From: Spirochaetaceae bacterium | Lineage (GTDB): Bacteria; Spirochaetota; Spirochaetia; SZUA-6; Bin103 | Length of the DNA: 64,000 nucleotides | NCBI GenBank assembly: GCA_028821475.1 | Contig: JAPPGB010000030.1 | Coordinates: forward strand, 1 to 64,000 | Direction of reading: 5' to 3' | Part shown: positions 1,257 through 58,593 of the stretch, in pieces | Layout: each line of letters starts with the position of its first letter | How positions within the stretch are numbered: the first letter of the stretch is position 1 | The notes under the pieces: generated by a model | The model's database searches: none | What the model was told of the DNA's origin: nothing | What the model saw: only the letters and a program-made list of their open reading frames with translations | Program-made: the position numbers and the translations under genes

Positions 1257-1298
1257 GAGAGCATTGCCGGAGCGGATTGCCGCTCCCTGGCTGCTCTC
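1257..1298 (-). promoter_or_regulatory. Leader hairpin beside the ribosome-binding site
   Basis: Outer arms GAGAGC/GCTCTC enclose a perfect seven-base-pair inner hairpin (GGAGCGG-ATTG-CCGCTCC, 1269-1286). The structure ends about 28 bases before the ATG at 1229. The same position in the two paralogous leaders (50297-50339 and 55070-55108) carries an analogous GAGAGTG/CACTCTC stem, so the structure is conserved while its sequence changes. A role in translation control is inferred. Confidence 0.5.
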
Positions 1299-1356
1299 GC
1301 GCCCGCAACGCGGGACAGCCAGTCCGGGTAGCCGAGGGTGGTTACCCACCCCAGGC

Positions 1357-1400
1357 CCCCACAGTCCCGTGCGAGCGCAATTGACGCACACGGTTCCTCA
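1357..1400 (-). ncRNA. Group II intron domain V
   Basis: Immediately after the maturase stop the minus strand reads GAGGAACCGTGTGCG, a short loop, then CGCTCGCACGGGACTGTGG. This is the typical domain V hairpin, with a long CCGTG-GCG stem. It supports the group II assignment independently of the protein. Confidence 0.6.
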
Positions 1401-2738
1401 AATCGCAGCCTTCGCTGCGTAGATAGAATGAACGACACGTGCCGCCGGCAGGGGGTAACGTGCCAGCAGCCGAGCAAAGCATGCCCAGTTGAGACGCCGG
1501 CCACCACGACGATTCAGCCACTTCATCCAGAGGTGTTTCACCGTGTAGTAGAACAGCGCCAAAGAGCGCGCATTACCCGTGAGGCCGTAGTACCCTTAAT
1601 GGCCTAACAGCTTGCGCCGCAGGACCGCTTGCTGTCCCCGCAGCGGCGCATGGCGGTTGCGCTTGCACCAGGTTGATACAGCGCGTAGCGCGCGGGTAAT
1701 CCGGTCGCGCGCGGTCTTCCGCTGCACGATCCATTTCCCCGTGCGCGAGCGTCCCCAGTAGTGGGTGAACCCCAGAAACTGGAAACTCTCCCGTCGTGCT
1801 CCCGCCCTGTCCCCTTCCGGTGGTTCAAACCGCAGCATCTCGGTCTTCTCCTCGTGCACGGTCAGCCCGTATTTCGCGAAACGCTTGGGCAAGGTGTTCA
1901 ATACCCGCTCGGCATCGTGCCGATCGGTGAATACCATTACCGCGTCGTCCGCAAATCGTACCAGGAATGCCCGTCCCCGCAGGTGCCGTTGCACTACCTC
2001 GGTGAACCACTGGTCGAGTACTTCGTGCAGGTAGATATTGCTCAGTAGCGGAGATATCCCTCCACCCTGTGGCGTCCCCTGCCCCGCGTGTGAGACAGCG
2101 CCATTCTCCATGACGCCGGCTTTCAGCCATTTGCCAATAAGCCGTGTGATCACTCCATCTCGCATCCGCTGTCCGAGAATCGTTCGTAGCTGAGTGTGTG
2201 ACAGGGTGTCGAAGAACTTGCGTATGTCCAGGTCTATCACACTACCTCCCCCTTCCCGCATCGTCTGTTTCCAGAGTGCATCCAGCGCCGTGTGCGGCGA
2301 TCGCTCGGGCCGAAAGCCGTGCGAACAGTCCAAGAAGTCCTGCTCGTACAGAGGCTCAAGCAGCATCTGCACCGCCCGCTGGAGTATCTTGTCCTCGAAA
2401 GTCGGTATCCCGATGGGCCGGGTTTCTCCGCTTGTCCCCTTCGGTATGTGCACCCGCCTCACCGGCGGTGCCCTATACGTACCTGCCTTCGCGCGCTCCA
2501 GGAGCGATTTCAGGTTCTGCCCCAGGTTCTCTTCGTACTGCTCGGCGGTCTGTCCATCGACGCCAGCTGCACCGTCCTTCCGGGTGCGCCGGTAGGCCTC
2601 GTGCAGCCACTCCAAATCCATATGATGCGCCAGCGACGTAAACGCCACTTCCGGGTGGATTCTCGCGTTCTCTGCTATCCGCTGCTGTTTCGTTAACACG
2701 TTTCCAGATTCCATTGCACCTTCCGTGTTTCCCCGCAT
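1398..2738 (-). pseudogene. Group II intron reverse transcriptase/maturase with a premature stop
   Basis: LtrA-type reverse transcriptase. RT landmarks are present in order: RPIGIPTFEDKILQ (about 107-120), FRPERSPH (142-149), VIDLDIRKFFD (167-177), GTPQGGGISPLL (221-232), the catalytic FADD (262-265, replacing the more usual YADD) and QFLGFTHYW. The frame stops at a TAA after LRRKLLGH (1596-1598). Translation past that codon in the same frame gives GYYGLTGNARSL...ARVVHSIYAAKAAI up to a TGA at 1398, the usual maturase (domain X) end. The TAA therefore replaces the Tyr expected in HYGYYG, a single nonsense mutation. There is no HNH endonuclease domain. The product would be an RT lacking its maturase tail unless the stop is read through. 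Confidence 0.85.
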
Positions 2739-3460
2739 CGGTTCTGCGACTCGACGCCCTCCTTCCCTCCACCGGGTCCGGTGCGGCGACCGTTCCCCGG
2801 CTTCATCGGTACTATGGGGGCGCTAAGACTTCTCGCTGCCCTTCTCGCCGCGCTTCGTTGCCTTCGCTTGGCGATACCATGCCGGCACCCGTCTGTTCGC
2901 TCCTGTGCTTCTTCGGATGCCCTTCCGCACAGGCCTGGACTTTGGTACCCCGGCGTCCCTCCGGCTCTCCCGTCATGGAAACAACGAGACCTCCCAGGTT
3001 CCTGGGCCACCCGCTCCACATCTGCCCTGCTCTCCGACCCCGGCCGGGCCTCCGTGCCAAGCCATTGTTTTCGGCACGTCGGTGCTGCCCCCGCTCTCAG
3101 AACGACGAAGGCCCCAGCAATTATTCTTTCGTGGCTCAATGACACGGCTTCTGTGGTCGCGGTCTACGCTTCGTCCCCGGGGTCGCCCCCGACCAACGCA
3201 AGACTCGCTTCCGGCTGCCGGCTACGCTCTACCGGGTGGGATTGGCTACCCACAGGGTGGCTACGACAGGTTTCTGATGCATACTTCACATCTTCCTCCC
3301 CTCCCAGGCTTGGCCTGGCGCGATCAGAGTCAGATTCCCGGCGTGCGCGGCGTGTGACTCAGCCGGGTTCACCCGGGTCACACCGCGCGCGCGTGCGGTT
3401 CTTTGCGTATGATGGGCACCTCCGATGCGCCGGGACACCGGCGGGGTGTGGTGAACGTGA

Positions 3461-3779
3461 TTGACCGGTAACGCCGGCGGTCGGTTCCGCGACGGTGAGA
3501 CGGGGGGCGGGCCCCAGGAAGGTTGCGGTGGTGAGCGAACGAAGGTGGACTGAGCCGCCACCGCACGCAGCCGGCCGCGGCCCCCGCGCTGCAGGCGAAG
3601 ACGCCCGCGCGGCGATCAGCGGTGGCGGTTAAAGGTTTCTCGTATAAAGAGTTGCCGGGGGGGGGGGCCTACTGGTTGCGTCAACTGGTAGCAGTTCTGA
3701 GTGCTATGGTCGCGCATGGTCGGCATGTGTCCGAAACCGCTCAGTCAATGATCATGCACCGTCCGATGCCGTCCGTCAA
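3461..3779 (-). promoter_or_regulatory. Distal leader and promoter of the interrupted binding-protein gene (copy D)
   Basis: On the minus strand: -35 TTGACG (3774-3779), 17-bp spacer, -10 CATGAT (3751-3756). Then come a hexamer pair ACYAGT-like/ACTGGT with 7-bp spacing (about 3670-3690), a run of ten C (complement of the G-run at 3657-3666) and a GCCGGCGTTACCGG hairpin (3464-3480). This order matches the leaders at 50.5, 55.3 and 57.2 kb. No convincing gene is present between 3384 and 3906. Confidence 0.55.
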
Positions 3780-48480: not shown

Positions 48481-50280
48481 CTAAAACCCCATTTCTTTCT
48501 TCAGATCCTGGTCGATCCAAAAGCGGGCGAAGATCGTATAATCGTTCCAGTTGGCCATGTTGGCTTCACCGTTCCAACCTTTCACCCACGGATGGGCGAA
48601 CTGAAACATTGGCGCTTTAGGGCCCATTACATTAAACTGATTCCGTACTACAAACATGTCGTAGTCTTTGGCGAACTTCTGCTGCTCCTCAATGCTGGTA
48701 GCGGCGAAAAAGCCATCATGGAGAGCCTCCAATTCCGGCGAACCTCCGCCGACCGTTTCCAGCGTTAAAGCCTTCGCAGCCCAGCTATACCAGCCCATGA
48801 CTGCGGCCGGGGTAAGACTCGCGTTCACGGCCCCGGTGGCCATCTCATACGAGTGATCTGATACAAGGGCTTGCCAAGTCGGACTGTCATATGGAGTAAT
48901 CGCTACACTAACGCCAATTTCATCCCAGTAGCCGGCAAGTGCTTCTATAATGCCTATATCAAAAATGCCACGGAGAACATAGGTGGTCTCAAATCGTACG
49001 CCGTCCGCACCGCGCGGATATCCAGCCGCATCAAGCAATGCTTCCGCCGCTTCCGGGTCATACCTATAGGTTTTCTTGACCTCTTCGGGCCACTCTTCAA
49101 ACGGGACGTAAAATCCCTTGAGGTTATCTCCGATGACTCCCGTTGGTGTTGGCTTCGCAAGACCGCTATAGTAAGTTTCGTTGATCGTCTCCAGGTCCAC
49201 TGCCATCTGCATGGCCTGGCGTACCCTGATGTCGTCAAAAGGCGGGTTGCGCGTGTTCATGGAAGCAGAGCTATTATTGTAAATCCAAAAAGGGCCCACC
49301 TGGAGTTCTGGATTGGTCCGCTGGAGGCTCCGTACCGTATCGATGGATCCCACGGACATGCCCCCGGAAGTATGTACCATGTCAATGCTGGCCGAGCGTA
49401 GGGCGGCGAGCAGTGTCGCTTCGTCTCCCATATACAGATGCCTTACTTCGTCAACATAGGGCAAGCGGTTCTCCGGGTACTTTGGGTCGTGGCCCCAGTA
49501 GTCAGGATTCTTGATATAGGTCCTGGAGACGCCTTCGACCAAGTCAGTCAGCATAAAGGGCCCGGTGCCGACCATGTTCCGCCAATCCTTGTAGTCGCCG
49601 TGTTGTTCGATTACCTCGGGGGGCAAAATGAAAGCCATGGTTCCGGTTGTAAAAGAGGGCACTGCATCGAGCGATGGCTGCTCCATCTTGACGACAACCG
49701 TCGATTTGTCGGTGGCCGTTATCGATTCGACTGGCATGCGGAATATGTCGAACTGCTGTAAAGGAACTCCCTCCTTGCCCCAACCCTTAATGCGCCGAAA
49801 GTTATACTCGACATCGCCGGCAGTCAGCTCCCGACCGTTCATCGGTGCCTTATTGTGCCAGTGAACGCCCTTGCGGATGTGGAAGACGATAGTTAGTGGG
49901 TCGGGTGTTGCCCAGCTTTCCACCAAGTTCCCTGTCATGACGCTAAAAGGGTAGTAATAAGAACTGAAATCAAATTCGTCCCTATCTATTGCCCAGTTCG
50001 CGTAGGCGAGTTTCTCATTAACGCCACTGATCCACCATGTCGGGCGTCCACCGTCATAAAAGGGGTCAGTGGGAGCAATGTCTGGAAGCTTGTAGGGCAG
50101 GGTCAGTGTTCCGCCATAGCTCGGCGCCACCACCTGGTTTCCGGTGGTGGGGTCGGTCACCATCTCCTTCCCGGCGGCGGCTGCCGGCGCCTCTTCGCTG
50201 GCAGCGGCCCAGAGGCCGGACGCGGCCAGACCGAGACCGATCAGGACCGCCAGGATCTTTCGCAAGATTGCGTATTGCAT
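48481..50280 (-). CDS. Peptide ABC transporter substrate-binding protein
   Basis: A 599-residue SBP_bac_5 protein. Signal peptide MQYAILRKILAVLIGLGLAASG with AAA cleavage; then an Ala/Glu linker, the DPTTGN tag and APSYGGTLTL. Landmarks: VESWATPDPLTIVFHIRKGVHW, FDDIRVRQAMQMAVD, FYVPFEEWPEEVKKTYRYD, AGYPRGADG. It ends KKEMGF. The ATG has AGGAGG eight bases upstream. It lacks a lipobox Cys, so it is likely periplasmic and soluble. First gene of the intact operon with OppB and OppC; the leader region upstream is conserved with three other binding-protein genes. Confidence 0.92.
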   Translation of the reverse strand: MQYAILRKILAVLIGLGLAASGLWAAASEEAPAAAAGKEMVTDPTTGNQVVAPSYGGTLTLPYKLPDIAPTDPFYDGGRPTWWISGVNEKLAYANWAIDRDEFDFSSYYYPFSVMTGNLVESWATPDPLTIVFHIRKGVHWHNKAPMNGRELTAGDVEYNFRRIKGWGKEGVPLQQFDIFRMPVESITATDKSTVVVKMEQPSLDAVPSFTTGTMAFILPPEVIEQHGDYKDWRNMVGTGPFMLTDLVEGVSRTYIKNPDYWGHDPKYPENRLPYVDEVRHLYMGDEATLLAALRSASIDMVHTSGGMSVGSIDTVRSLQRTNPELQVGPFWIYNNSSASMNTRNPPFDDIRVRQAMQMAVDLETINETYYSGLAKPTPTGVIGDNLKGFYVPFEEWPEEVKKTYRYDPEAAEALLDAAGYPRGADGVRFETTYVLRGIFDIGIIEALAGYWDEIGVSVAITPYDSPTWQALVSDHSYEMATGAVNASLTPAAVMGWYSWAAKALTLETVGGGSPELEALHDGFFAATSIEEQQKFAKDYDMFVVRNQFNVMGPKAPMFQFAHPWVKGWNGEANMANWNDYTIFARFWIDQDLKKEMGF

Positions 50281-50296: not shown

Positions 50297-50339
50297 TCGA
50301 GAGTGCTTGTCTCGCTGTGCATCCGTCGCCCACTCTCGA
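50297..50339 (-). promoter_or_regulatory. RBS-proximal leader hairpin
   Basis: A 9-bp perfect inverted repeat TCGAGAGTG / CACTCTCGA (50297-50305 and 50331-50339), ending just before the AGGAGG. The paralogous leader at 55070-55108 has the same arms without their outer two pairs. Its position suggests control of ribosome access. Confidence 0.5.
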
Positions 50340-50742
50340 GACGCACCGGCAATCTCCGGTGCCCGGAAAGCGACGGCGACAGCCCCGAGCTACTTCGACA
50401 TCCGGCACCTCCTTGAACGCGTGCGCGGACCTGAGCCCGGAGCACCGCGTGGGGCGGTGTTCTGCGGCGCAACGAAAGCGAGTAACCGGCAACGCCGGCG
50501 GTGCAGTGTGCAGGTGGTAAGAGCGGCAAGAAGAGCGGTGCAGACGAAGCGGCGCGCGGGGCGCCCGGCCCGGTCAATGCGAGGAGTTAGTGAATTTCGC
50601 GTAAATGATTGGGGGGGGAGGGGGATAGGACACACCGGTCCGGTCAACCGGTGGCGCCCTCAAGTGCTTGTGGTATTGCATCGTCCACATAAGCCCATTG
50701 TCCGACAAGAGTCATCGTTACACACGCGCAACGGGCTGTCAA
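50340..50742 (-). promoter_or_regulatory. Promoter and long conserved leader of a binding-protein gene (copy A)
   Basis: Minus strand: -35 TTGACA (50737-50742), 17-bp spacer, -10 AACGAT (50714-50719), then ACCGGT-N7-ACCGGT (about 50634-50652), a C-run (complement of the G-run at 50611-50624) and a GCCGGCGTTGCCGG hairpin (about 50486-50500). The transcript would have a leader of about 430 nt. The stretch aligns over its whole length with 55110-55506, including the CGCGGG and GGTG-rich segments. No gene is supported between 50281 and 50746. Confidence 0.6.
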
Positions 50743-50749
50743 GTCGGTG

Positions 50750-50798
50750 AGCGCTCGGACGGCGGGCGGTGGTGGAGCTCCCCGCCGATCTGGCCTGA
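50750..50798 (+). pseudogene. 3' tail of an XRE-type HTH gene (duplicated fragment)
   Basis: The frame reads ALGRRAVVELPADLA and stops. That equals the last 15 codons of the intact HTH gene ending at 56538, with one residue changed, and the similarity continues about 35 bases past the stop. It is a leftover of a duplicated segment. The remainder to 50964 holds nothing recognisable. Confidence 0.65.
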
Positions 50799-50964
50799 TC
50801 CCGCCGTCACCCCTCTGCGATCTCGGCATCGTCGACCGCGCACTCGGCGAACTCGAGCGAGAGGTGCGGTCGTCATTCTCGCCCCGCGTCGGATCAGTTG
50901 CGCGACGAGCGCGCTCGTACCGCTTTCTGCAGCGCCTTGCCACCGAGGGCACCCATGCGCCCCA

Positions 50965-51312
50965 TCATACCCGTGTGCCTTCGTGCCGAATGTTCCAGCC
51001 AAGGGGAAATCGGCTAAGCTCGCGCCACTCTTCCTCGCTGTACACCAGCGCCGCAAACAGTTGGTCGTAGTCGTTCAGCATCTGAACTCCGACGTCCAGA
51101 ATGGCGTCGCGAACAATTCGCGTGCGCATGTCAACTACGACCAGAAAGTCGTAGTCGGAATACTCCGTGCCATCGCCGCGCGCCTGCGAACCGAACAACA
51201 CGATTTGTTTGACATGATCGCCGAGCTTTGCACGAACCAGCGCTGCGTATTCTCTTGCCTTGTCGACACCCGTCTTCGTGATCCTCGTGGTTGCCACCAG
51301 CCACGTTACCAT
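50965..51312 (-). CDS. Nucleotidyltransferase of the MNT type
   Basis: A 115-residue minimal nucleotidyltransferase. VKQIVLFGSQARGDGTEYSDYDFLVVVD contains the GSxARG...SDxD catalytic pattern (Asp pair in YSDYDF). The ATG at 51312 is chosen by domain extent; the frame runs further upstream without similarity. Such proteins are MntA-type antitoxins paired with HEPN toxins; no HEPN gene is adjacent, so the partner is missing. Confidence 0.78.
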   Translation of the reverse strand: MVTWLVATTRITKTGVDKAREYAALVRAKLGDHVKQIVLFGSQARGDGTEYSDYDFLVVVDMRTRIVRDAILDVGVQMLNDYDQLFAALVYSEEEWRELSRFPLGWNIRHEGTRV

Positions 51313-51353
51313 AGCACGTGCAGATGTAGAGCGATCAATCGGTGTTGATTCCG

Positions 51354-51958
51354 CTACTTCCGGCCGGCGCCGTAGCGGCCGAGGCGGCCGCGCAGACGGG
51401 GGTCGAGCAGGTCGCGCACCGCGTCGCCGAACATGCTGAGGCTGTACACCACCGCGGTCAGACATACTCCCGGCCACAGCGCCAAGTGCGGCGCGATCTC
51501 CTGGAGCTGCCGCCCCTCGCGGCTCAGCATGCCGCCCCAGCTCGGGATGTCCGGCGGCAGACCGAAACCCAGGAAGCTCAGCGCCGCCTCCGCCATGATC
51601 ACCCCGCCCACGTTGATGCTGAAGATGATGATAATCGGCGCCGCGATGTTGGGCAGCACGTGGCGCAGCAGCGAGCGCCGGCGCGAGCTGCCGATTGCCT
51701 GCGCGGCCTGAAAGTAGACGTTCTCCTTCACCCCCGGCACCGCGCCGCGCACCACCCGGGACGCCGGGATGCCGCCGGACACCCCCAGCACGATGATGAT
51801 CTGCTGACCAGCACCAGGAGCAGGATGATGATGCCGCCGACGGTCCCCAGCGGCTGCTCGCGCACCAGCCGGGCGAGGAACTTCCTCAGCCCGGCTTGCC
51901 CAGCCTCGCCCGCGCCCGGGTCGGCGACGGCCGGGGTCAACTGCGATACGTCACCCAT
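51354..51958 (-). pseudogene. OppC-type permease gene with internal deletion and frameshift
   Basis: The first part reads REQPLGTVGGIIILLLVLVS as in the intact paralogue. The frame then changes at GTCAGCAGATCATC and resumes as IIIVLGVSGGIPASRVVRGA, continuing to DAVRDLLDPRLRGRLGR. The deleted middle corresponds to about 125 residues including LLGTDHAGRDF. The breakpoint has CAG at both ends of the lost segment. It cannot encode a working permease, so the operon's OppB (52099-53058) lacks its partner here. Confidence 0.82.
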
Positions 51959-52098
51959 CGGCCCGACTCACCCGAACATCGCCGCCAGCCGGCGAACGTC
52001 GTGCATCGGGTTTCCTGCTGACCCGAAATGCTGGCCAGTGGGCGCTGCCTGCGCATCGCATTGCCTGTTGTTCCGGGTCACGGAGTGGCCTTCCCTTC

Positions 52099-53058
52099 TC
52101 ATTCGTAGCGAATCCGCGGGTCCAGCGACGCGTACAGCAGATCGGTCACCAGGTTGACCACCACCACCACCGTGGCGAAGAACAGGTTTATCGCCGACAC
52201 CACCGGGTAGTCGCGGTCGCCCAGCGCGTCCAGCATCAGCCGCCCCAGCCCCGGCAGGTTGAAGATGTTCTCGATGATCACCGAGCCGCCCACCAGAATC
52301 GGGATCTGCATGCCCACCAGCGTCACCACCGGGATGATCGCGTTCTTGACCGCGTGGCGCAGGATCACCGACCGCTCCAGCAGACCCTTGGCCCAGGCCG
52401 TGCGGATGTAGTCCTGGCGCAGCACCTCCAGCATCATGGTGCGCGTCATGCGCATGGTGCTGGCCGCCAGGTAGGTGCCCAGGATCAGGCTGGGGATCAG
52501 GAACATGCCGAGGTTGCCCAGCGGGTCCTGGGCCAACGGGATCAGCTCCATCGGCGGCGACCACGCCCACCAGATGGCCGGGTAGATCATCACCATCGTT
52601 CCCAGCCAGAAGTTGGGTGTCGCCAGCCCCATGATGGCGACCGACCGACCCACGTAGTCGGCGGCGGTGTACTGGCGCACCGCCGAGTGGATGCCCACCG
52701 GCAGCGCGATGACCAGGCCGATGAGGATGGCCAGCAGCCCGAGCTCGGCGGTGACCGGCAGTCGTCCCAGCATGCGCTCCTCGATCCGCCAACCGCCCAG
52801 CAGCGACTCGCCGAGGGTACCGCGCAGGAAGATGTCGCCGATCCAGCGCCCGTACTGCACCTGGATCGGCAGGTCCAGGCCGAGCCTGCGCTCCATGGCC
52901 GCGCGGTCGACTTGGCCGCCGTCCACCGCCTCGATACGGGCGGCCATGACGTCGATGACATCGCCGGGAATGAAGCGGACCGACAGGAACACCAACACGC
53001 TCAGAATGAACAACGTGGGGATGACCAGCAACAGCCGCCGGATGATGTAGGCTGTCAT
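52099..53058 (-). CDS. Peptide ABC transporter permease, OppB type
   Basis: A 319-residue OppB protein. MTAYIIRRLLLVIPTLFILSV starts it; landmarks as in its 47.3 kb paralogue: GRWIGDIFLRGTLGESLLGG, PNFWLGTMVMIYPAIWW, GLLERSVILRHAVKNA, GGSVIIENIFNLPGLGRLM and LDPRIRYE. The ATG is chosen by the conserved start rather than the longer frame. It is intact but its OppC partner is broken. It lies 178 bp after the binding-protein gene. Confidence 0.92.
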   Translation of the reverse strand: MTAYIIRRLLLVIPTLFILSVLVFLSVRFIPGDVIDVMAARIEAVDGGQVDRAAMERRLGLDLPIQVQYGRWIGDIFLRGTLGESLLGGWRIEERMLGRLPVTAELGLLAILIGLVIALPVGIHSAVRQYTAADYVGRSVAIMGLATPNFWLGTMVMIYPAIWWAWSPPMELIPLAQDPLGNLGMFLIPSLILGTYLAASTMRMTRTMMLEVLRQDYIRTAWAKGLLERSVILRHAVKNAIIPVVTLVGMQIPILVGGSVIIENIFNLPGLGRLMLDALGDRDYPVVSAINLFFATVVVVVNLVTDLLYASLDPRIRYE

Positions 53059-53140
53059 GACCCAGTCACCGCGACCCGGCCCCTCCCACCCCGGGGTGAG
53101 AGGGGCCAACACGCTGATTCAATCGCCTGAGAGTTGCGGC

Positions 53141-53234
53141 GCAGGCGCGCCTGGCGCGCCTGCAATTGAAACCGCCGCTGGCAGTTTCCTTGGAGTCGCG
53201 CAGCGACTCCTTAGGCCAACGGCGAAGCCGTCGG
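53141..53234 (-). terminator. Cluster of three strong hairpins between binding protein and oppB
   Basis: Hairpin 1 at 53141-53163: GCAGGCGCG-N5-CGCGCCTGC. Hairpin 2 at 53192-53210: GGAGTCGC-GCA-GCGACTCC. Hairpin 3 at 53216-53234 pairs CCGACGGC with GCCGTTGG. The last lies two bases after the SBP stop. No U-run follows. Confidence 0.6.
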
Positions 53235-53235
53235 C

Positions 53236-55041
53236 TCAGAAGCCCATTTCTCGCTTCAGATCCTGGTCGATCCAGAGGCGGGTGAGGACGTTTTGCTCAT
53301 ACTGGACTGTGTTCAAGGTTTCACCGTTAAAGCCTTTCACCCACGGCTGGCTGGCCTGATACCCTGGAGCCATAGGACCCCATATCACATAGTGATGCCT
53401 TATCACCTCCATGCCATGCTCGCTTGCCGCCTGCATCTGCTCATCGATGCTAGTGGCGCCGAAATAGGCAGCTTGGGTGGCGGCCAGCACAGGGTTCTCG
53501 ACTCCGCCCACATATGTGCGTAGCCGAACCGAGTCCGAGTTATATAATCCCATGGCCCAGTCCGGGGACTCTCTGGCCATGCCGCCATAAATCGACTCAT
53601 AGTTCCTTTCTGCCATAGTAGCAGCGAGAGTCGGCCACTCGTGAATACTAAGCGTTACATCAACGCCAATATCAGCCCAGTAGCCAGCGACTATTTCTAC
53701 ATAGCCCAAATCCCCGATGTCACGGTGCTGATGTTCGAACTTGAATCGGACGCCGTCCGCGCCGCGCGGATATCCTGCCTCATCGAGGAGCCTCTCAGCC
53801 CCTGCCGGGTCGTAGGTGTAGTACTGCTTGAGCTCTGCGGGCCACTCTTCCCATTCAGTGTAAAACCCCTTGGCGCCAATGAAGCGCGGTGGTTGCCAGT
53901 CGGCGAAACCACCATAGTAGGTATCGCTGATCGTCTCCAGGTCCAGCGCCATCTGCAGCGCGTGGCGTACTCTGATATCGTCAAAGGGGGCTTTTTGTGG
54001 GTTCAGGGTTATGGCATCTAACGACCGCTGGTAAAATGGCCATATCGCAATGTCGGGGTTAGTCCGCTGGAGGCCCTTTACCACGTCGAGGGACTTTATC
54101 TCGACGCCAGAGAGGCGTATCATATCAATCGTACCCGAGCGTAGTGCCGATATCCGTGTTGCTTCTTCTGCTATAAGGACGGCCCTTATCTGGTCAACAT
54201 ATGGCAGGCGGTTCTCCGGGTATTTTTCGTCGAAGCCCCAGTAGTCGGGATTCCTGGTCCAGGTTTTGGAGACGCCTTCGACGTAGTCGGTCAGCATAAC
54301 GGGCCCGGTGCCGACCACGTTCTTCCAATCCGTATAGTCGCCGTATTGCTCGATTACCTCACGAGGCAATATCTGGTGCAAACCTTCGTTGATAATAGCC
54401 CCGAGCGCACCGATCGACGGCTCCGTCAGCCTCATGACAACGGTGTATTTGTCGCTGGCCTCTATCGATTCCCATGGCAGATCGATAGCTGCTCTGGAAA
54501 TTGTAGGACGTTCGGTGAAGTCACCCCGAGCGGTCATGCGCTGATAGGTATAGACGACATCATCGGCAGTGAGCTCTCGACCACCTACCAGCCGACTGGC
54601 CTCACTGTCCGGATCGAGAGCGTAGTGAACGCCCTGGCGGATGTGGAATACGTACGTCAGTGGGTCGGGCGTTTCCCAGCTTTCCGCCAGCTCCCCGGTG
54701 AAAGCAAACAGAGGAACGTAGGGCCCGTTGAAGGCGAGTTCTTCCCGAGCAAGTCCCCAGTTCGGCCGGGCGAGATTCTCATTGACACCGCCTATGAGGT
54801 AGCCCGCAGCGCCGCCAACAACAAAGGGGTCGCTTTCGAATTCTATGACATACGGATAGGTCAATGTCCCGCCGTACTCCGGCGCGGTCACCATCTTGCC
54901 GGTGGTGGGGTCGGTCACCATCTCCTTCTCCATGGCGGCGGCCGGCTCCTCTTCCCCGGCCGGGCTGGCCCACACGCCGGTGGCCATCAGGACGAACCCG
55001 CACAGTACGGCGAGGAATGTTCTCAAGAATGCGTAATGCAT
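53236..55041 (-). CDS. Peptide ABC transporter substrate-binding protein
   Basis: A 601-residue SBP_bac_5 protein. Signal peptide MHYAFLRTFLAVLCGFVLMA, then an Ala/Glu linker, DPTTGK tag, APEYGGTLTYPY, AESWETPDPLTYVFHIRQGVHY, FDDIRVRHALQMALD, TEWEEWPAELKQYY, AGYPRGADG and ending KREMGF. The ATG has AAGGAGC upstream. The sole Cys of the signal region is inside the hydrophobic core, not a lipobox. The leader and promoter match copy A. Sister genes at 48.5 and 59.0 kb have the same architecture but differ widely in sequence, so ligands may differ. Confidence 0.92.
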   Translation of the reverse strand: MHYAFLRTFLAVLCGFVLMATGVWASPAGEEEPAAAMEKEMVTDPTTGKMVTAPEYGGTLTYPYVIEFESDPFVVGGAAGYLIGGVNENLARPNWGLAREELAFNGPYVPLFAFTGELAESWETPDPLTYVFHIRQGVHYALDPDSEASRLVGGRELTADDVVYTYQRMTARGDFTERPTISRAAIDLPWESIEASDKYTVVMRLTEPSIGALGAIINEGLHQILPREVIEQYGDYTDWKNVVGTGPVMLTDYVEGVSKTWTRNPDYWGFDEKYPENRLPYVDQIRAVLIAEEATRISALRSGTIDMIRLSGVEIKSLDVVKGLQRTNPDIAIWPFYQRSLDAITLNPQKAPFDDIRVRHALQMALDLETISDTYYGGFADWQPPRFIGAKGFYTEWEEWPAELKQYYTYDPAGAERLLDEAGYPRGADGVRFKFEHQHRDIGDLGYVEIVAGYWADIGVDVTLSIHEWPTLAATMAERNYESIYGGMARESPDWAMGLYNSDSVRLRTYVGGVENPVLAATQAAYFGATSIDEQMQAASEHGMEVIRHHYVIWGPMAPGYQASQPWVKGFNGETLNTVQYEQNVLTRLWIDQDLKREMGF

Positions 55042-55069
55042 CTTTGCTCCTTGCAATCTCCTTGCAATA

Positions 55070-55506
55070 GAGAGTGCTGGTTTCCCTGTGCATCCTTCGC
55101 CCACTCTCGAGGTACACCTACAATCGCCGGTGCCCGGCAAGCGATGGCCACAGCCCCGAGTCTACATACGGGACCTCCCTTGACGCGTGCGCCGACCTGA
55201 GCCTGGAGCGCCGCATGGGGCCGAGGCCGGTGACGCAGCGAATGTGAGTGACCGGCATCGCCGGCGCTGCGGGTTGAGAGTGGTCGGGTGAGCGGTGGTG
55301 CAGGCGAAGCGGTGCGCGGGGCGTCCCGGTCGCTCAGCGCGAAGAGCTAGTGCGAATCGTGTAAATGCTTGGGGCGGGGGGGGGGGAATAGGACACACCG
55401 GTCCCGTCCACCGGTGGCGTCCTCAAACGCTCATGGTATTGCGTCGTCCACATTAGCGTGTTCTCCGACAAGGAGTCATCGTAATCCACGCGCAACGAGC
55501 TGTCAA
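55070..55506 (-). promoter_or_regulatory. Promoter and long conserved leader of a binding-protein gene (copy B)
   Basis: Minus strand: -35 TTGACA (55501-55506), 17 bp, -10 TACGAT (55478-55483). Then ACCGGT-N7-ACCGGT (about 55397-55416), a C-run (complement of 55371-55386), a CCGGCGATGCCGG hairpin (55251-55264) and the RBS-proximal stem GAGAGTG/CACTCTC (55070-55108). The leader would be about 430 nt. It is the best preserved promoter of the set. No gene is present between 55042 and 55606. Confidence 0.65.
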
Positions 55507-55568
55507 ATCGGACCGGGGCCCATCGCGACCGGTAACCGCCGTTACGCGCTACGTACGCGGGCATGCGC

Positions 55569-55608
55569 TTGCAGGTCCCACTCGCCCGCTGTACAATGCA
55601 TGTATTGT
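55569..55608 (+). promoter_or_regulatory. Promoter with palindrome at the -10, giving a near-leaderless transcript
   Basis: -35 TTGCAG (55569-55574), 17 bp, -10 TACAAT (55592-55597). The expected start site falls about two or three bases before the GTG at 55607. The inverted repeat ACAAT-N6-ATTGT (55593-55608) covers the -10 and the start, suiting repression by the neighbouring HTH protein. Confidence 0.55.
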
Positions 55609-56209
55609 GAGCGAGGGTCTGGATGCAGCCGCCAGGAAACCTGACGGGCCGGATCGAGTGGCTGCCGTGGCCGCTTGGGTTCAATCGCTGTTCTCGATCG
55701 ACGATGCCGTGCCCGCCCTGGTGGGAGGTGGTGCGGTCGAGCTGTACACCGGTGGCGCATATCGAACCGGAGATCTGGATTTCGTAGGAGTCGTGACGGC
55801 GGCAGCCGCCAAGCGGATGAGCGAGGCCGGATTCGAGCGCCGTGGTCGACATTGGATTCATGAGCGACACCGGTTGTTCCTCGAATTCCCCGACGACGCT
55901 CTGGATCGCGGGAACGTTGTCGCGACAATTCGGGTAGGCACCACGTCGGTCGTGGTGGTCGGGCTGGAGGAGCTCATAGTGGACCGACTCGCGGCATGGC
56001 AGTTCTGGCGATCGGAGATCGATGGCTACAACGCTTGGCTGTTGTGGTCGAGCGGAAACCACCGCCCGAACCTTGCTCGATTGCGCGCCCTTGCCGAACG
56101 CAACGAGGCGTCAGCAGCGCTCGACTCGCTCGTGGCCTTCGCCCGAACCCACGTCGCACGAGAGCCGACGCACACGGAGGTGGAGACATGGGCACGCACG
56201 AACCCATGA
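55607..56209 (+). CDS. Nucleotidyltransferase-like protein (AbiEii-type toxin candidate)
   Basis: A 200-residue protein. ALVGGGAVELYTGGAYRTGDLDFVG matches the GGxA...T-x-D-x-D pattern of substrate-binding nucleotidyltransferases, and VVVVGLEELIVDRLAAWQFW is typical of AbiEii/DUF6036-like families. It starts with GTG, probably leaderless. Its end overlaps the HTH gene by 22 bp, suggesting a two-gene TA operon. Confidence 0.65.
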   Translation: MSEGLDAAARKPDGPDRVAAVAAWVQSLFSIDDAVPALVGGGAVELYTGGAYRTGDLDFVGVVTAAAAKRMSEAGFERRGRHWIHERHRLFLEFPDDALDRGNVVATIRVGTTSVVVVGLEELIVDRLAAWQFWRSEIDGYNAWLLWSSGNHRPNLARLRALAERNEASAALDSLVAFARTHVAREPTHTEVETWARTNP

Positions 56210-56538
56210 GGTTTTACGTGGCTCCGCGTGCGCGTCCTGCGTTGCCGCGGACACACTTGAGCCGGCGCAAGCCTCGGTCGTACGAAGAGTGGAAGGCGTT
56301 GCGCAGATGGGGAAGAATCCCGCCCTGGGAAGCCGATCCGCCTGGCTACCTGCTGCGTGAGGCGCGAGAGTCCGCCGGGTTCACCCAAGGCCGGCTCGCG
56401 GAGCGGCTCGGTTGCACGCAGCAGGCCATTTCCCAAGCCGAGCGCTTCACCGGCAATCCGACGATCGGATTCGTACGCGAGTGGGCACGAGCGCTCGGAC
56501 GGCGGGAGGTGGTGGAGCTCCCCGCCGATCTGGCCTGA
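56188..56538 (+). CDS. XRE-family HTH regulator/antitoxin
   Basis: A 116-residue protein. The C-terminal half is a lambda-repressor-type HTH: LLREARESAGFTQGRLAERL and GCTQQAISQAER. The N-terminal half is basic. It overlaps the nucleotidyltransferase gene and is likely its antitoxin and repressor. Its last 15 codons and about 35 following bases are duplicated at 50750-50835. Confidence 0.78.
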   Translation: MGTHEPMRFYVAPRARPALPRTHLSRRKPRSYEEWKALRRWGRIPPWEADPPGYLLREARESAGFTQGRLAERLGCTQQAISQAERFTGNPTIGFVREWARALGRREVVELPADLA

Positions 56539-56592
56539 TCCCGCCGTCACCCGTCTGCGATCTCGGCGTTGAGCGCGATAGCGTTGATCCCG

Positions 56593-57143
56593 CTACTCTC
56601 GGCCGGCGCCGTAGCGGCCGAGGCGGCCGCGCAGACGGGGGTCGAGCAGGTCGCGCACCGCGTCGCCGAACATGTTGAGGCTGTACACCACCACGGTCAG
56701 ACATACTCCCGGCCACAGCGCCAGGTGCGGCGCGATCTCCATGTACTGGCGCCCCTCGCGGCTCAGCATGCCGCCCCAGCTCGGTATGTCCGGCGGCGGC
56801 GGGCAATATCCAATCCTGAACTGATTCGAGGATAGTGTGCAGCCCACCGACGACCGGCTCGGTCATCTTCATAACGACCGTGTTTCTGTCGGTGGCATCT
56901 ACCGATGCCCACGGCAGTTTGTGAGCCGTGCCCAGGCGCTCGGTACGTTCGGTGAAGTCACCCAGACCCATGTTGCGCTGATAGGTAAATGCGATGTCAT
57001 CGGCGGTGAGCTCCCGGCCGTTTACCAAGCGGCTCGCCTCACTGTCCGGGTTCAGGGCGTAGCGAATGCCCTGACGAATGTGGAAAACATACGTGAGCGC
57101 GTCGGGCGTTTCCCAGCTTTCCGCCAGGTTCCCGGTGTACGCA
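56593..57143 (-). pseudogene. Fused fragments: binding-protein middle part and OppC tail
   Basis: From 57143 to about 56812 the minus strand encodes an SBP_bac_5 fragment (YTGNLAESWETPDALT, VNGRELTADDIAFTYQRNMG, ILESVQDWILP). It is then joined, out of frame, to PPDIPSWGGMLSREGRQYME and DAVRDLLDPRLRGRLGR, the OppC tail. The SBP start, its C-terminal lobe, all of OppB and most of OppC are lost. The join shows TGCC/GCCG microhomology. Upstream, the SBP fragment is fused directly to leader copy C. Confidence 0.8.
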
Positions 57144-57395
57144 AACCGGCATCGCCGGCGGTGCGGGCTGAGAGTGGTCGGGTGAGCCGTGGTGCAGGCG
57201 AAGCGGTGCGCGGGGCGTCCCGCTCGCTCAGCGCGAAGAGCTAGTGCAAATCGTGTAAATGCTTGGGGGGGTAGGACACACCGGTCCCGTCAACCGGTGG
57301 CGTCCATCAAGTGCTTGTGGTATTGCATCGTCCACATTAGCGTGTTCTCCGACAGAGGGGCATCATGAGCCACGCGCAACGAGCTGTCAAATCGA
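57144..57395 (-). promoter_or_regulatory. Leader fragment with degenerate promoter (copy C)
   Basis: Carries -35 TTGACA (57385-57390), 17 bp, -10 CATGAT (57362-57367), then ACCGGT-N7-ACCGGT (about 57280-57298), a C-run (complement of 57265-57271) and the CCGGCGATGCCGG hairpin near 57147. The RBS-proximal half is deleted. It now precedes only gene fragments. Confidence 0.55.
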
Positions 57396-57425: not shown

Positions 57426-57797
57426 CTACCAGACCGCCTCCGGGTAGTAGGTGTGGATGGTGTAGTCCTTGGTCAGCAACGGCGAATCGTCGACGGCGGC
57501 CTGCGCGGTGATCAGCCTGTCGAATGGATCGCGGGTCCACTTCATGCCGATCGATTTCCTGGCCACCGCCGCGAACGGCTTGCCGCAGACATCAAGCTCG
57601 ATGGTGTCGTGCAGGTAGTCGTACACCTCGGCGGCCTTGGCGTTGATCCTGCCGGTTTCGAACAGGTACTCCACTTCGAGGAGCACCATCGGCGACACCA
57701 GGAGATCGCTACTCTCGATCAGCTCCCTTGCCAGGGGCGAGATGCGCTCCTCATCCTTCTCGTACAGCCAGACGACCACGTGAGTATCAAGGTACAC
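57426..57797 (-). CDS. PIN-domain toxin, VapC family
   Basis: A 123-residue PIN ribonuclease. YLDTHVVVWLYEKD carries the first Asp, VLLEVEYLFETG the middle Glu, and TRDPFDRLITAQA with LLTKDYTIHTYY the last acidic residues. It overlaps its antitoxin gene by 11 bp. Intact. Confidence 0.86.
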   Translation of the reverse strand: MYLDTHVVVWLYEKDEERISPLARELIESSDLLVSPMVLLEVEYLFETGRINAKAAEVYDYLHDTIELDVCGKPFAAVARKSIGMKWTRDPFDRLITAQAAVDDSPLLTKDYTIHTYYPEAVW

Positions 57798-58023
57798 GGT
57801 TGCCGCGCCACTCGTGGGACCAGTCCATGTGCACGAGTTCGTCCGGATCGCCGACCACGATCTTGTGCGCGGTTAGCCGGTCCCATTTCGACGCCCGCTC
57901 CTCAGGCACGATTCTCAACAGCCGTCCCCGCCGTTCCACTTCCACCGGCACCCCGGTGTCCACCACCGAATCGAGAATGTTGTAAAGGTTCTGCCGGAGT
58001 CTTGTTGCGCTGATAGCGGCCAT
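57787..58023 (-). CDS. Phd/YefM-type antitoxin
   Basis: A 78-residue antitoxin. MAAISATRLRQNLYNILDSVV then VPVEVERRGRLLRIVP is the Phd fold; the C-terminal Trp-rich acidic tail (LVHMDWSHEW) probably binds the toxin. An alternative ATG lies three codons earlier (58032). It is paired with the VapC-like gene. Confidence 0.8.
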   Translation of the reverse strand: MAAISATRLRQNLYNILDSVVDTGVPVEVERRGRLLRIVPEERASKWDRLTAHKIVVGDPDELVHMDWSHEWRGNRVP

Positions 58024-58125
58024 GGCGAACATGGTAGCCCGGTGACGTACGTATAGCAACACTGTTACGTACGGATGGACGGATGGGTACCGATGGACTC
58101 CGCGGCCTATGGGAGGCGGAATAGG

Positions 58126-58353
58126 TTACGCGAGTCCGACCACCGTGACGACGATGCCCAGGACGACGAACGCCACGGTGCCCATCCACTGGAGCGAGCT
58201 GAACCGCTTGTTCATGTCCTCGAAGCGCTGGTTCATATCCTCGAAGTGCCGGTTCACGTCCTCGAACCGTTTGTTTACGTCGTCGAAGCGCCGGTCGACC
58301 GCGGCGAAGCGCTTGTCGAGGTTGGCGTTCATGTCCTCGAAGCGCCGGTTCAT
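58126..58353 (-). CDS. Small coiled-coil protein with C-terminal membrane helix
   Basis: A 75-residue protein. Residues 1-50 are heptads of the type RFEDMNx repeated about seven times (MNRRFED, MNANLDK, VDRRFDD and so on). Residues 53-75 form one TM helix (MGTVAFVVLGIVVTVVGLA). This is the usual architecture of small membrane-bound coiled-coil proteins of unknown function. The longer upstream frame has no matching features. Confidence 0.6.
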   Translation of the reverse strand: MNRRFEDMNANLDKRFAAVDRRFDDVNKRFEDVNRHFEDMNQRFEDMNKRFSSLQWMGTVAFVVLGIVVTVVGLA

Positions 58354-58377
58354 ATCCTCGCCACGGCGCGGCGCCGC

Positions 58378-58593
58378 ATGGTGATCACCATGTGGTACCT
58401 GCCGCGCTACGACGAGCTGAGCGAACCGCTGCGCGCCGCCTTCCAGGAGCGCCTCTACGCCGCCCCGCCGCCCGACCTCCCGGCCGAGCAACTGAACCGC
58501 ATCCGCCATCTGCTTCCCGACTACGCCGGCAGCGCCGCCCCCGCCGTCTGGAACCGGATCCCCGGCCACCACCTCGCCGGGACAAGAGCTTGA
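58378..58593 (+). other. Possible C-terminal gene remnant
   Basis: The plus frame MVITMWYLPRYDELSEPLRAAF to the stop at 58593 has protein-like composition (amphipathic helices, LPAEQLNRIRHLLPDYA). It has no recognised start region, because the upstream part is antisense to the coiled-coil gene. It could be a short unknown gene or the tail of a lost one. Confidence 0.3.

Follow-up and report, generated by a model that had tools for sequence, protein, structure and literature searches.

The 64-kb window considered here (the whole stretch of DNA that was analysed, 64,000 nucleotides of a Spirochaetaceae bacterium) carries long leaders upstream of genes for solute-binding proteins (SBPs) of the oligopeptide type. 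Their conserved core, about 85-110 nt located just 5' of the Shine-Dalgarno sequence (SD), is an H-type pseudoknot, and about 50 copies of it occur in the genome. The leaders are probably an undescribed, lineage-restricted cis-regulatory RNA controlling the initiation of SBP translation, in which the 3' strand of pseudoknot helix P3 is a putative anti-SD; sequence comparison favours this reading somewhat. A preliminary description of the same DNA had reported long structured leaders of no known class, in the format of a riboswitch, an attenuator or a small-RNA target. Covariation and the absence of Rfam matches agree with a structured cis-regulatory leader outside the known classes; none of the three formats was established.

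Structure of the conserved core

Two sequence classes of the core share one topology. A helix P0/P1 of about 13 bp is crossed by helix P3 of 8 bp, the hairpin P2 stands in the loop, and the distance from the end of the pseudoknot to the AUG is 17-35 nt. In class 2, which includes the leaders near 50 kb and 55 kb of the window and that of contig C128, P0 and P1 together form a 13-bp helix around hairpin P2 and strand P3a. Variants of P1 in this class are CCCUCGC/GCGAGGG, CCUUCGC/GCGAAGG and CCGUCGC/GCGACGG; P3a takes the forms CGAGAGUG, CGGGAGUG, CGAGAACA and UGAGAGUG, with the P3b partners CACUCUCG, CGCUCCCG, UGUUCUCG and CACUCUCA. Because P3b lies downstream of P1b, P3 crosses P1 and the fold is an H-type pseudoknot. 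Class 1 is built from P1 CUGGC/GCCAG, P2 CGCCCGC-GUU-GCGGGCG and P3 GAGAGUA/UACUCUC, and has an additional hairpin, P4.

Two other structures were considered and rejected. The ribozyme of hepatitis delta virus is a nested double pseudoknot, and the element order found here (P1a, hairpin, P3a, P1b, P3b) is unlike it, which argues against that or another ribozyme topology. A pairing of an upstream AUACUC with GAGAGUA is broken in copies with CUG and is unsupported.

Covariation of the helices

According to the preliminary description, the absence of compensatory changes from a wide alignment would mean that duplication alone explains the similarity of the leaders. Such changes are present: the class-2 helices covary far beyond both shuffled alignments and slid control structures. 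In the class-2 alignment A3, 91.4% of cells are paired, against at most 49% for slid structures, a comparison that is favoured by the partly by-eye choice of structures and alignments before counting. A3 contains 25 double-change cells where 9.6 are expected, and its covariation score of 0.301 (0.181±0.020 for shuffles) was reached by 0 of 500 shuffles. For the larger class-2 alignment, A5, the model included the P0/P1 pairs but not those of P3; one row of A5, L190:1636-1757, is a spurious match. On A5, P3 is 94.3% paired, with 21 double-change cells against 4.9, and P0/P1 is 90.3% paired, with 15 against 6.8; neither was equalled in 500 shuffles. The class-1 helices vary less than those of class 2, and P3 in class 1 (alignment A6) has 11 double-change cells against 5.9 (0/500 shuffles).

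Since shuffles ignore relatedness, pair states were also mapped on the SBP protein tree, where nine independent full double substitutions were found: five in P3, two in P1 and two in P0. The tree mapping and the P3 results on A5 and A6 are least exposed to the choices made by eye. The core is thus a conserved secondary structure with covariation support.

Distribution of the leaders

The genome is a draft of 5.73 Mb in 183 contigs, resembling a metagenome-assembled genome, and one relative of the same genus (G002) was available. The draft contains 134 matches to SBP_bac_5 (peptide type), far above the 9 proteins of this type reported for E. coli MG1655 (PMC9602780). Upstream sequence was taken for 133 of them, and the leader core stands before at least 48 SBPs, including 43 of the 62 with a DPxTG N-terminal motif. 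Covariance models of class 1 (R1) and class 2 (R2) match about 50 leaders of this genome and 9 of G002, with rough E-values and with class assignments and some SBP starts set by the analyst. The four loci of the preliminary description therefore represent a small part of the family. The searches added the leaders of contigs C32, C71 and C99, of which C71 is placed only beside an SBP N-terminal match. All matches inspected precede SBP_bac_5 genes or fragments at the distance given above. The element thus has a consistent position in the 5' untranslated region (UTR) of a coherent gene set, and in these matches its link to one expanded family of ATP-binding cassette importer binding proteins is exclusive.

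No homologue was found in the 26 other genomes searched from the order, or, under stricter filters, in 295 further genomes sampled from the phylum. Likewise, almost all matches to the SBP subfamily come from this genome and G002 (91 and 37, with one weak match in three others). A scan of genome contigs for the SBP N-terminus found one relative, in Spirochaetaceae bin103 (L207), whose leader differs and gives no R2 match. DNA matches of 25-27 nt in genomes G039 and G020 were regarded as chance matches at the CCGGC hairpin motif.

A scan against Rfam 15 (cmscan, gathering threshold or E<=1) gave no match over the pseudoknot; known RNA families were rejected, because group II introns were the only credible Rfam matches, besides two chance matches below threshold. 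A search of open-access papers found nothing recognisable as the leader element. The element seems to be a structured RNA family that Rfam lacks, and there is no support for placing it in any class of riboswitch or attenuator.

A third type of leader, with a GGCCGGAGUUUCCGGCC hairpin and a CGGGAC/GUCCCG stem before the SD, often together with GCTCCGTCCT arrays, precedes SBPs starting MTPRLMLLPLAFALVATVTFA (L020, L021, L033, L035, L068, L098 and L042). It is also found in Spirochaetaceae bin103 (L207:2290-2397).

Control of translation initiation

The core of P3b, UCYC (for example ACUCUC), is near-universal and complementary to the SD of the gene, while P3a contains GRGA (for example GAGAGU) and mimics an SD. 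The P3b:SD duplex has an energy of -5.2 kcal/mol, compared with -4.1±0.25 kcal/mol for shuffled P3b, and was matched by 0 of 200 mononucleotide shuffles. In the formed pseudoknot, P3a would capture P3b and the SD would be accessible; in an opened or still unfolded one, P3b could cover the SD.

Short upstream open reading frames (uORFs) occur in many copies of both classes. That of class 1 encodes MILKEPHARAA, has its own SD and has an NTG start in 26 of 32 copies; its non-consensus cells are distributed over the three codon positions as 7/8/18, and its final codons are shared with the 5' arm of a long hairpin. Class-2 uORFs are start-stop or two-codon frames with an SD (ATGTAG, TTGTAG, ATGTAA, ATGTCGAAGTAG and GTGAAGAGGTAA). 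This pattern of an SD followed by a start and a stop within 0-2 codons occurs at 1 of 236 control GGAGG sites, and the start-stop persists between species (ATGTAG/GTGTAG). Of four ortholog pairs, two conserve the block from uORF to pseudoknot while their upstream sequence has diverged. A start-stop or 11-codon uORF would put a ribosome beside the pseudoknot and may be the likeliest cis input. As the element is common to dozens of SBPs whose substrates presumably differ, the signal is probably global, such as translation status or a common factor, rather than the substrate of each protein.

Several observations weigh against such control. P3b does not overlap the SD, and its complementarity to the SD could be a by-product of a purine-rich, SD-like P3a. 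P3 is usually the stronger helix (-9 to -13 kcal/mol in most leaders, against -4 to -8 for P3b:SD), and reaching the OFF state would thus require assistance. P3 is damaged in some class-1 copies (GAGAGUA with UACUCCA) whose genes are intact, and the uORF is absent or damaged in some copies. The class-1 structure as a whole is weakly above shuffles, its covariation score being reached by 15 of 500.

A more specific mechanism can be proposed only tentatively. A ribosome on the start-stop mini-ORF (AUGUAG) may fold or open the adjacent pseudoknot, which would compete with the SD for the anti-SD strand; one translation-status signal would then set about 50 binding proteins, each tuned by its hypermutable C-rich repeat. 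This would be a new mechanistic class. Conserved start-stop mini-uORFs beside a pseudoknot would allow the idea of ribosome occupancy as a bacterial cis signal to be tested, and the roughly 50 copies in a single genome are a built-in mutational alignment for structure-function work. The element also suggests how more than 100 near-redundant importer binding proteins could be co-regulated by RNA and not by a transcription factor.

Upstream modules and alternative explanations

A metabolite-binding riboswitch, in which the pseudoknot is an aptamer and its ligand controls access to the ribosome binding site, is unlikely. A compact pseudoknot beside the ribosome binding site is the format of small translational riboswitches, and it does sit upstream of importers; however, no Rfam match was found, a single gene family is attached, and the helix sequences change freely with few invariant unpaired positions. 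One element precedes dozens of different SBPs, which argues against a leader sensing its own cognate substrate.

Other alternatives concern the sequence upstream of the core. In most leaders, a promoter-like site (TTGACA/G with a TATNNT-like -10) is found 120-730 nt before the ATG; promoter scores of at least 9 occur in 26 of 46 leaders and in 24 of 87 other upstream regions. The leaders of contigs C177, C166 and C135 begin directly at the pseudoknot, so the longer leader is optional. Conservation and structural constraint are greatest in the 3' 110 nt, and not in the promoter-proximal part.

C exceeds G at -200 to -400, with a skew of 0.13-0.17 in the leaders against 0.03 upstream of other SBPs. 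Such a C-rich segment could load Rho, with a translated uORF or the pseudoknot deciding termination. The poly-C tracts with an SD-bearing uORF downstream would suit this explanation, and Rho sites in one spirochaete have a raised C:G ratio (PMC10319736). Rho-dependent attenuation is nevertheless quite unlikely, given the modest size of the skew (the best 78-nt C/G ratio has a median of 2.3 against 1.7) and the lack of a C-rich segment in the three leaders beginning at the pseudoknot. Inspection by eye of those leaders that were read, without a systematic terminator scan, showed no intrinsic terminator (G+C hairpin with a U-tract).

Simple repeats, either poly-C of 7-12 or 7-10-mers, many of them perfect and C-rich, are present in the control region of 23 of 49 pseudoknot leaders, for example TCCACCCG (7.6 copies), TCGTCCTC (7 copies) and ACCGACA (5.4 copies). 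They are also found in 5 of 9 class-3 leaders, including GCTCCGTCCT arrays. The leader of C128 (L186) and its orthologue in G002 (contig C45, L181) have conserved flanks and unrelated perfect octamers at the same site, TCCACCCG and CATTCGGC, which suggests replacement of the repeat unit. Slippage in such repeats between promoter and structure could switch or tune each SBP, as in phase-variable contingency loci, and may act alongside the pseudoknot. In the spirochaete Treponema pallidum, the tpr paralogue family likewise has homopolymer tracts upstream of its genes; poly-G tracts have been studied in this species (PMC7864442). The tract of the present leaders, by comparison, is inside the predicted transcript, is C-rich on the sense strand, is often replaced by 7-10-mer arrays and is accompanied by structured RNA. 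Phase variation as the explanation of the leaders is distinctly improbable: about half of the pseudoknot leaders have no called repeat, and some array, mostly imperfect and GC-rich, is also present upstream of other SBPs, in 22 of 75 regions. Moreover, the tracts fall about 80 nt into the predicted transcript, outside the spacer from -35 to -10, and no proven ORF contains them. A long phase-variable ORF running through poly-C into the MILKEPHARAA frame was rejected, as the upstream open lengths range from 8 to 183 codons and the leaders differ by indels.

Contigs C8, C14, C27, C48, C50, C64, C34 and C144 of the genome (G000) end in long degenerate poly-C/poly-G. Leaders with poly-C probably break the assembly, so tract lengths at contig ends are unreliable.

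Duplication alone, with leaders hitch-hiking on an expanding SBP family without a function at the RNA level, accords with the 134 SBP_bac_5 matches, with leaders that track the DPxTG subfamily and with homologues confined to two genomes, but it is very improbable because it does not explain the compensatory changes in P0, P1 and P3, the nine independent double events or the concentration of conservation between species in the uORF-pseudoknot block.

Comparison with known systems

The preQ1-II and SAM-II riboswitches and the leader of ribosomal protein S15 are small translational pseudoknot regulators. The SBP leaders are similar to them in having an H-type pseudoknot just upstream of the SD that likely acts on initiation. 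They differ in that no sequence or Rfam match was found, the 3' strand of P3 is 17-35 nt upstream of the AUG and the SD lies outside it, one transporter family carries about 50 paralogous copies, and a uORF lies upstream.

Long 5' UTRs that carry a short ORF and its SD ahead of a regulated gene are also known, as in a copper-responsive leader (PMC9426467) and E. coli speFL (as cited in PMC10319736). In contrast to these uORF-regulated or Rho-regulated leaders, many uORFs here are start-stop or two-codon frames followed by a covarying pseudoknot, and evidence of a stalling peptide or of Rho is absent. Fragments derived from the 5' UTR of oppA, an oligopeptide-binding-protein gene of the spirochaete Borrelia burgdorferi, offer a further likeness (PMC10319736); the passages on oppA describe no homologous structure, and the mechanism there is given as unknown.

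Leader copies in the window

Four leader copies are present on the minus strand at the sites first described, and their homology was seen by reading, alignment and blastn. The copies at 50.3-50.7 and 55.1-55.5 kb share 77% identity across about 490 nt (E ~1e-103), and the 57.1-57.4 kb copy matches that at 55 kb with 87% identity across 275 nt (E 2e-95). At 3.5 kb, the copy has the same element order in the alignment but shares only short stretches with the others. The four promoters are exactly as had been described, those at 50 and 55 kb being predicted about 430 nt upstream of the ATG, and the C-tracts and the CCGGC/GCCGG hairpin were also found. The stem next to the ribosome binding site is real and is now recognised as helix P3 of the pseudoknot.

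Features of the 50-kb leader:
50714-50742, minus strand: sigma70-like promoter TTGACA-17-AACGAT (sequence; promoter-like score and distance)
50634-50652, minus strand: ACCGGT-N7-ACCGGT direct repeat, also palindromic (sequence)
50611-50624, minus strand: C-tract CCCCCTCCCCCCCC (sequence; C-rich simple repeats at the same site in other leaders)
50486-50498, minus strand: CCGGC/GCCGG hairpin (sequence)
50390-50412, minus strand: GGAGG SD and mini-uORF ATG TCG AAG TAG (sequence; class-2 pattern of SD, start and stop)
50297-50382, minus strand: pseudoknot (covariation in A3/A5; R2 match, E 4e-29), with P0 GCUGU/ACAGC, P1 CCGUCGC/GCGACGG, P2 hairpin 50362-50343 and P3 UCGAGAGUG (50339-50331)/CACUCUCGA (50305-50297)
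50291-50286, minus strand: SD AGGAGG of the SBP_bac_5 gene
48481-50280, minus strand: intact SBP_bac_5 gene, oligopeptide-type binding protein (Pfam PF00496, E 1.5e-65)

Features of the 55-kb leader:
55478-55506, minus strand: promoter TTGACA-17-TACGAT (sequence; promoter score)
55397-55415, minus strand: ACCGGT-N7-ACCGGT (sequence)
55371-55386, minus strand: poly-C tract of 11 C, G and 4 C (sequence; repeat survey)
55252-55264, minus strand: CCGGC GAU GCCGG hairpin (sequence)
55162-55178, minus strand: GGAGG SD and start-stop uORF ATG TAG (uORF survey)
55070-55153, minus strand: pseudoknot (R2 match, E 4e-27; covariation), with P0 CUGU/ACAG, P1 CCAUCGC/GCGAAGG, P2 55133-55115 and P3 CGAGAGUG (55109-55102)/CACUCUC (55076-55070)
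53236-55041, minus strand: intact SBP_bac_5 gene (Pfam PF00496, E 5e-59)

The repeat ACCGGT-N7-ACCGGT is found in three copies, and the fourth, at 3.5 kb, reads ACCAGT-N7-ACCAGT. That copy retains the direct repeat while the inverted repeat is broken; an RNA hairpin was therefore rejected, and the element looks more like a direct repeat in DNA, likelier a DNA site.

The leader was earlier said to be retained even where the gene is destroyed. The 57-kb copy is a deletion fusion to an SBP fragment. At 3.5 kb the gene is not destroyed: a group II intron, inserted after the uORF hairpin and ahead of the pseudoknot, splits the leader. The most plausible reading makes the 3.5-kb copy the leader's 5' part and the class-1 pseudoknot at 1322-1257 its 3' part.

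Features of the 3.5-kb leader:
3464-3779, minus strand: 5' part of the class-1 leader (promoter TTGACG-17-CATGAT 3779-3751, poly-C 3667-3657, hairpin)
3378-3419, minus strand: class-1 uORF GTG CCC ATC ATA CGC AAA GAA CCG CAC GCG CGC GCG GTG TGA, its final codons overlapping the 5' arm of the long hairpin
1330-3345, minus strand: group II intron, boundaries approximate (Rfam RF02005 at 3245-3028, 125.8 bits)
2738-1596, minus strand: reverse transcriptase ORF in the intron (RVT_1, E 1e-33)
1257-1322, minus strand: class-1 pseudoknot past the intron (R1 match, E 6e-22), with P1 CUGGC/GCCAG, P2 1314-1302, P4 1286-1269 and P3 GAGAGCA (1298-1292)/UGCUCUC (1263-1257)
1229, minus strand: ATG of the SBP gene

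Another class-1 leader contains a 140-nt antisense piece (L036:775-914, minus strand) that matches group II intron RF02005 with 102 bits.

Features of the 57-kb copy:
57145-57394, minus strand: leader truncated at 57145, where it joins an SBP fragment (57059-57145), without the pseudoknot (blastn)
57390-57362, minus strand: promoter TTGACA-17-CATGAT
57271-57265, minus strand: C-tract

Just upstream of this truncated leader is a pair of PhdYeFM antitoxin and PIN-domain toxin genes (57426-58062, minus strand). The second permease of the 55-kb operon appears to be internally deleted, and a duplicated C-terminal fragment adjoins the 57-kb remnant (51360-51958 and 56593-56847, both minus strand). 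At 58126-58384 (minus strand), a short heptad-like repeat array (RFEDMN) is found in a small membrane-anchored coiled-coil ORF.

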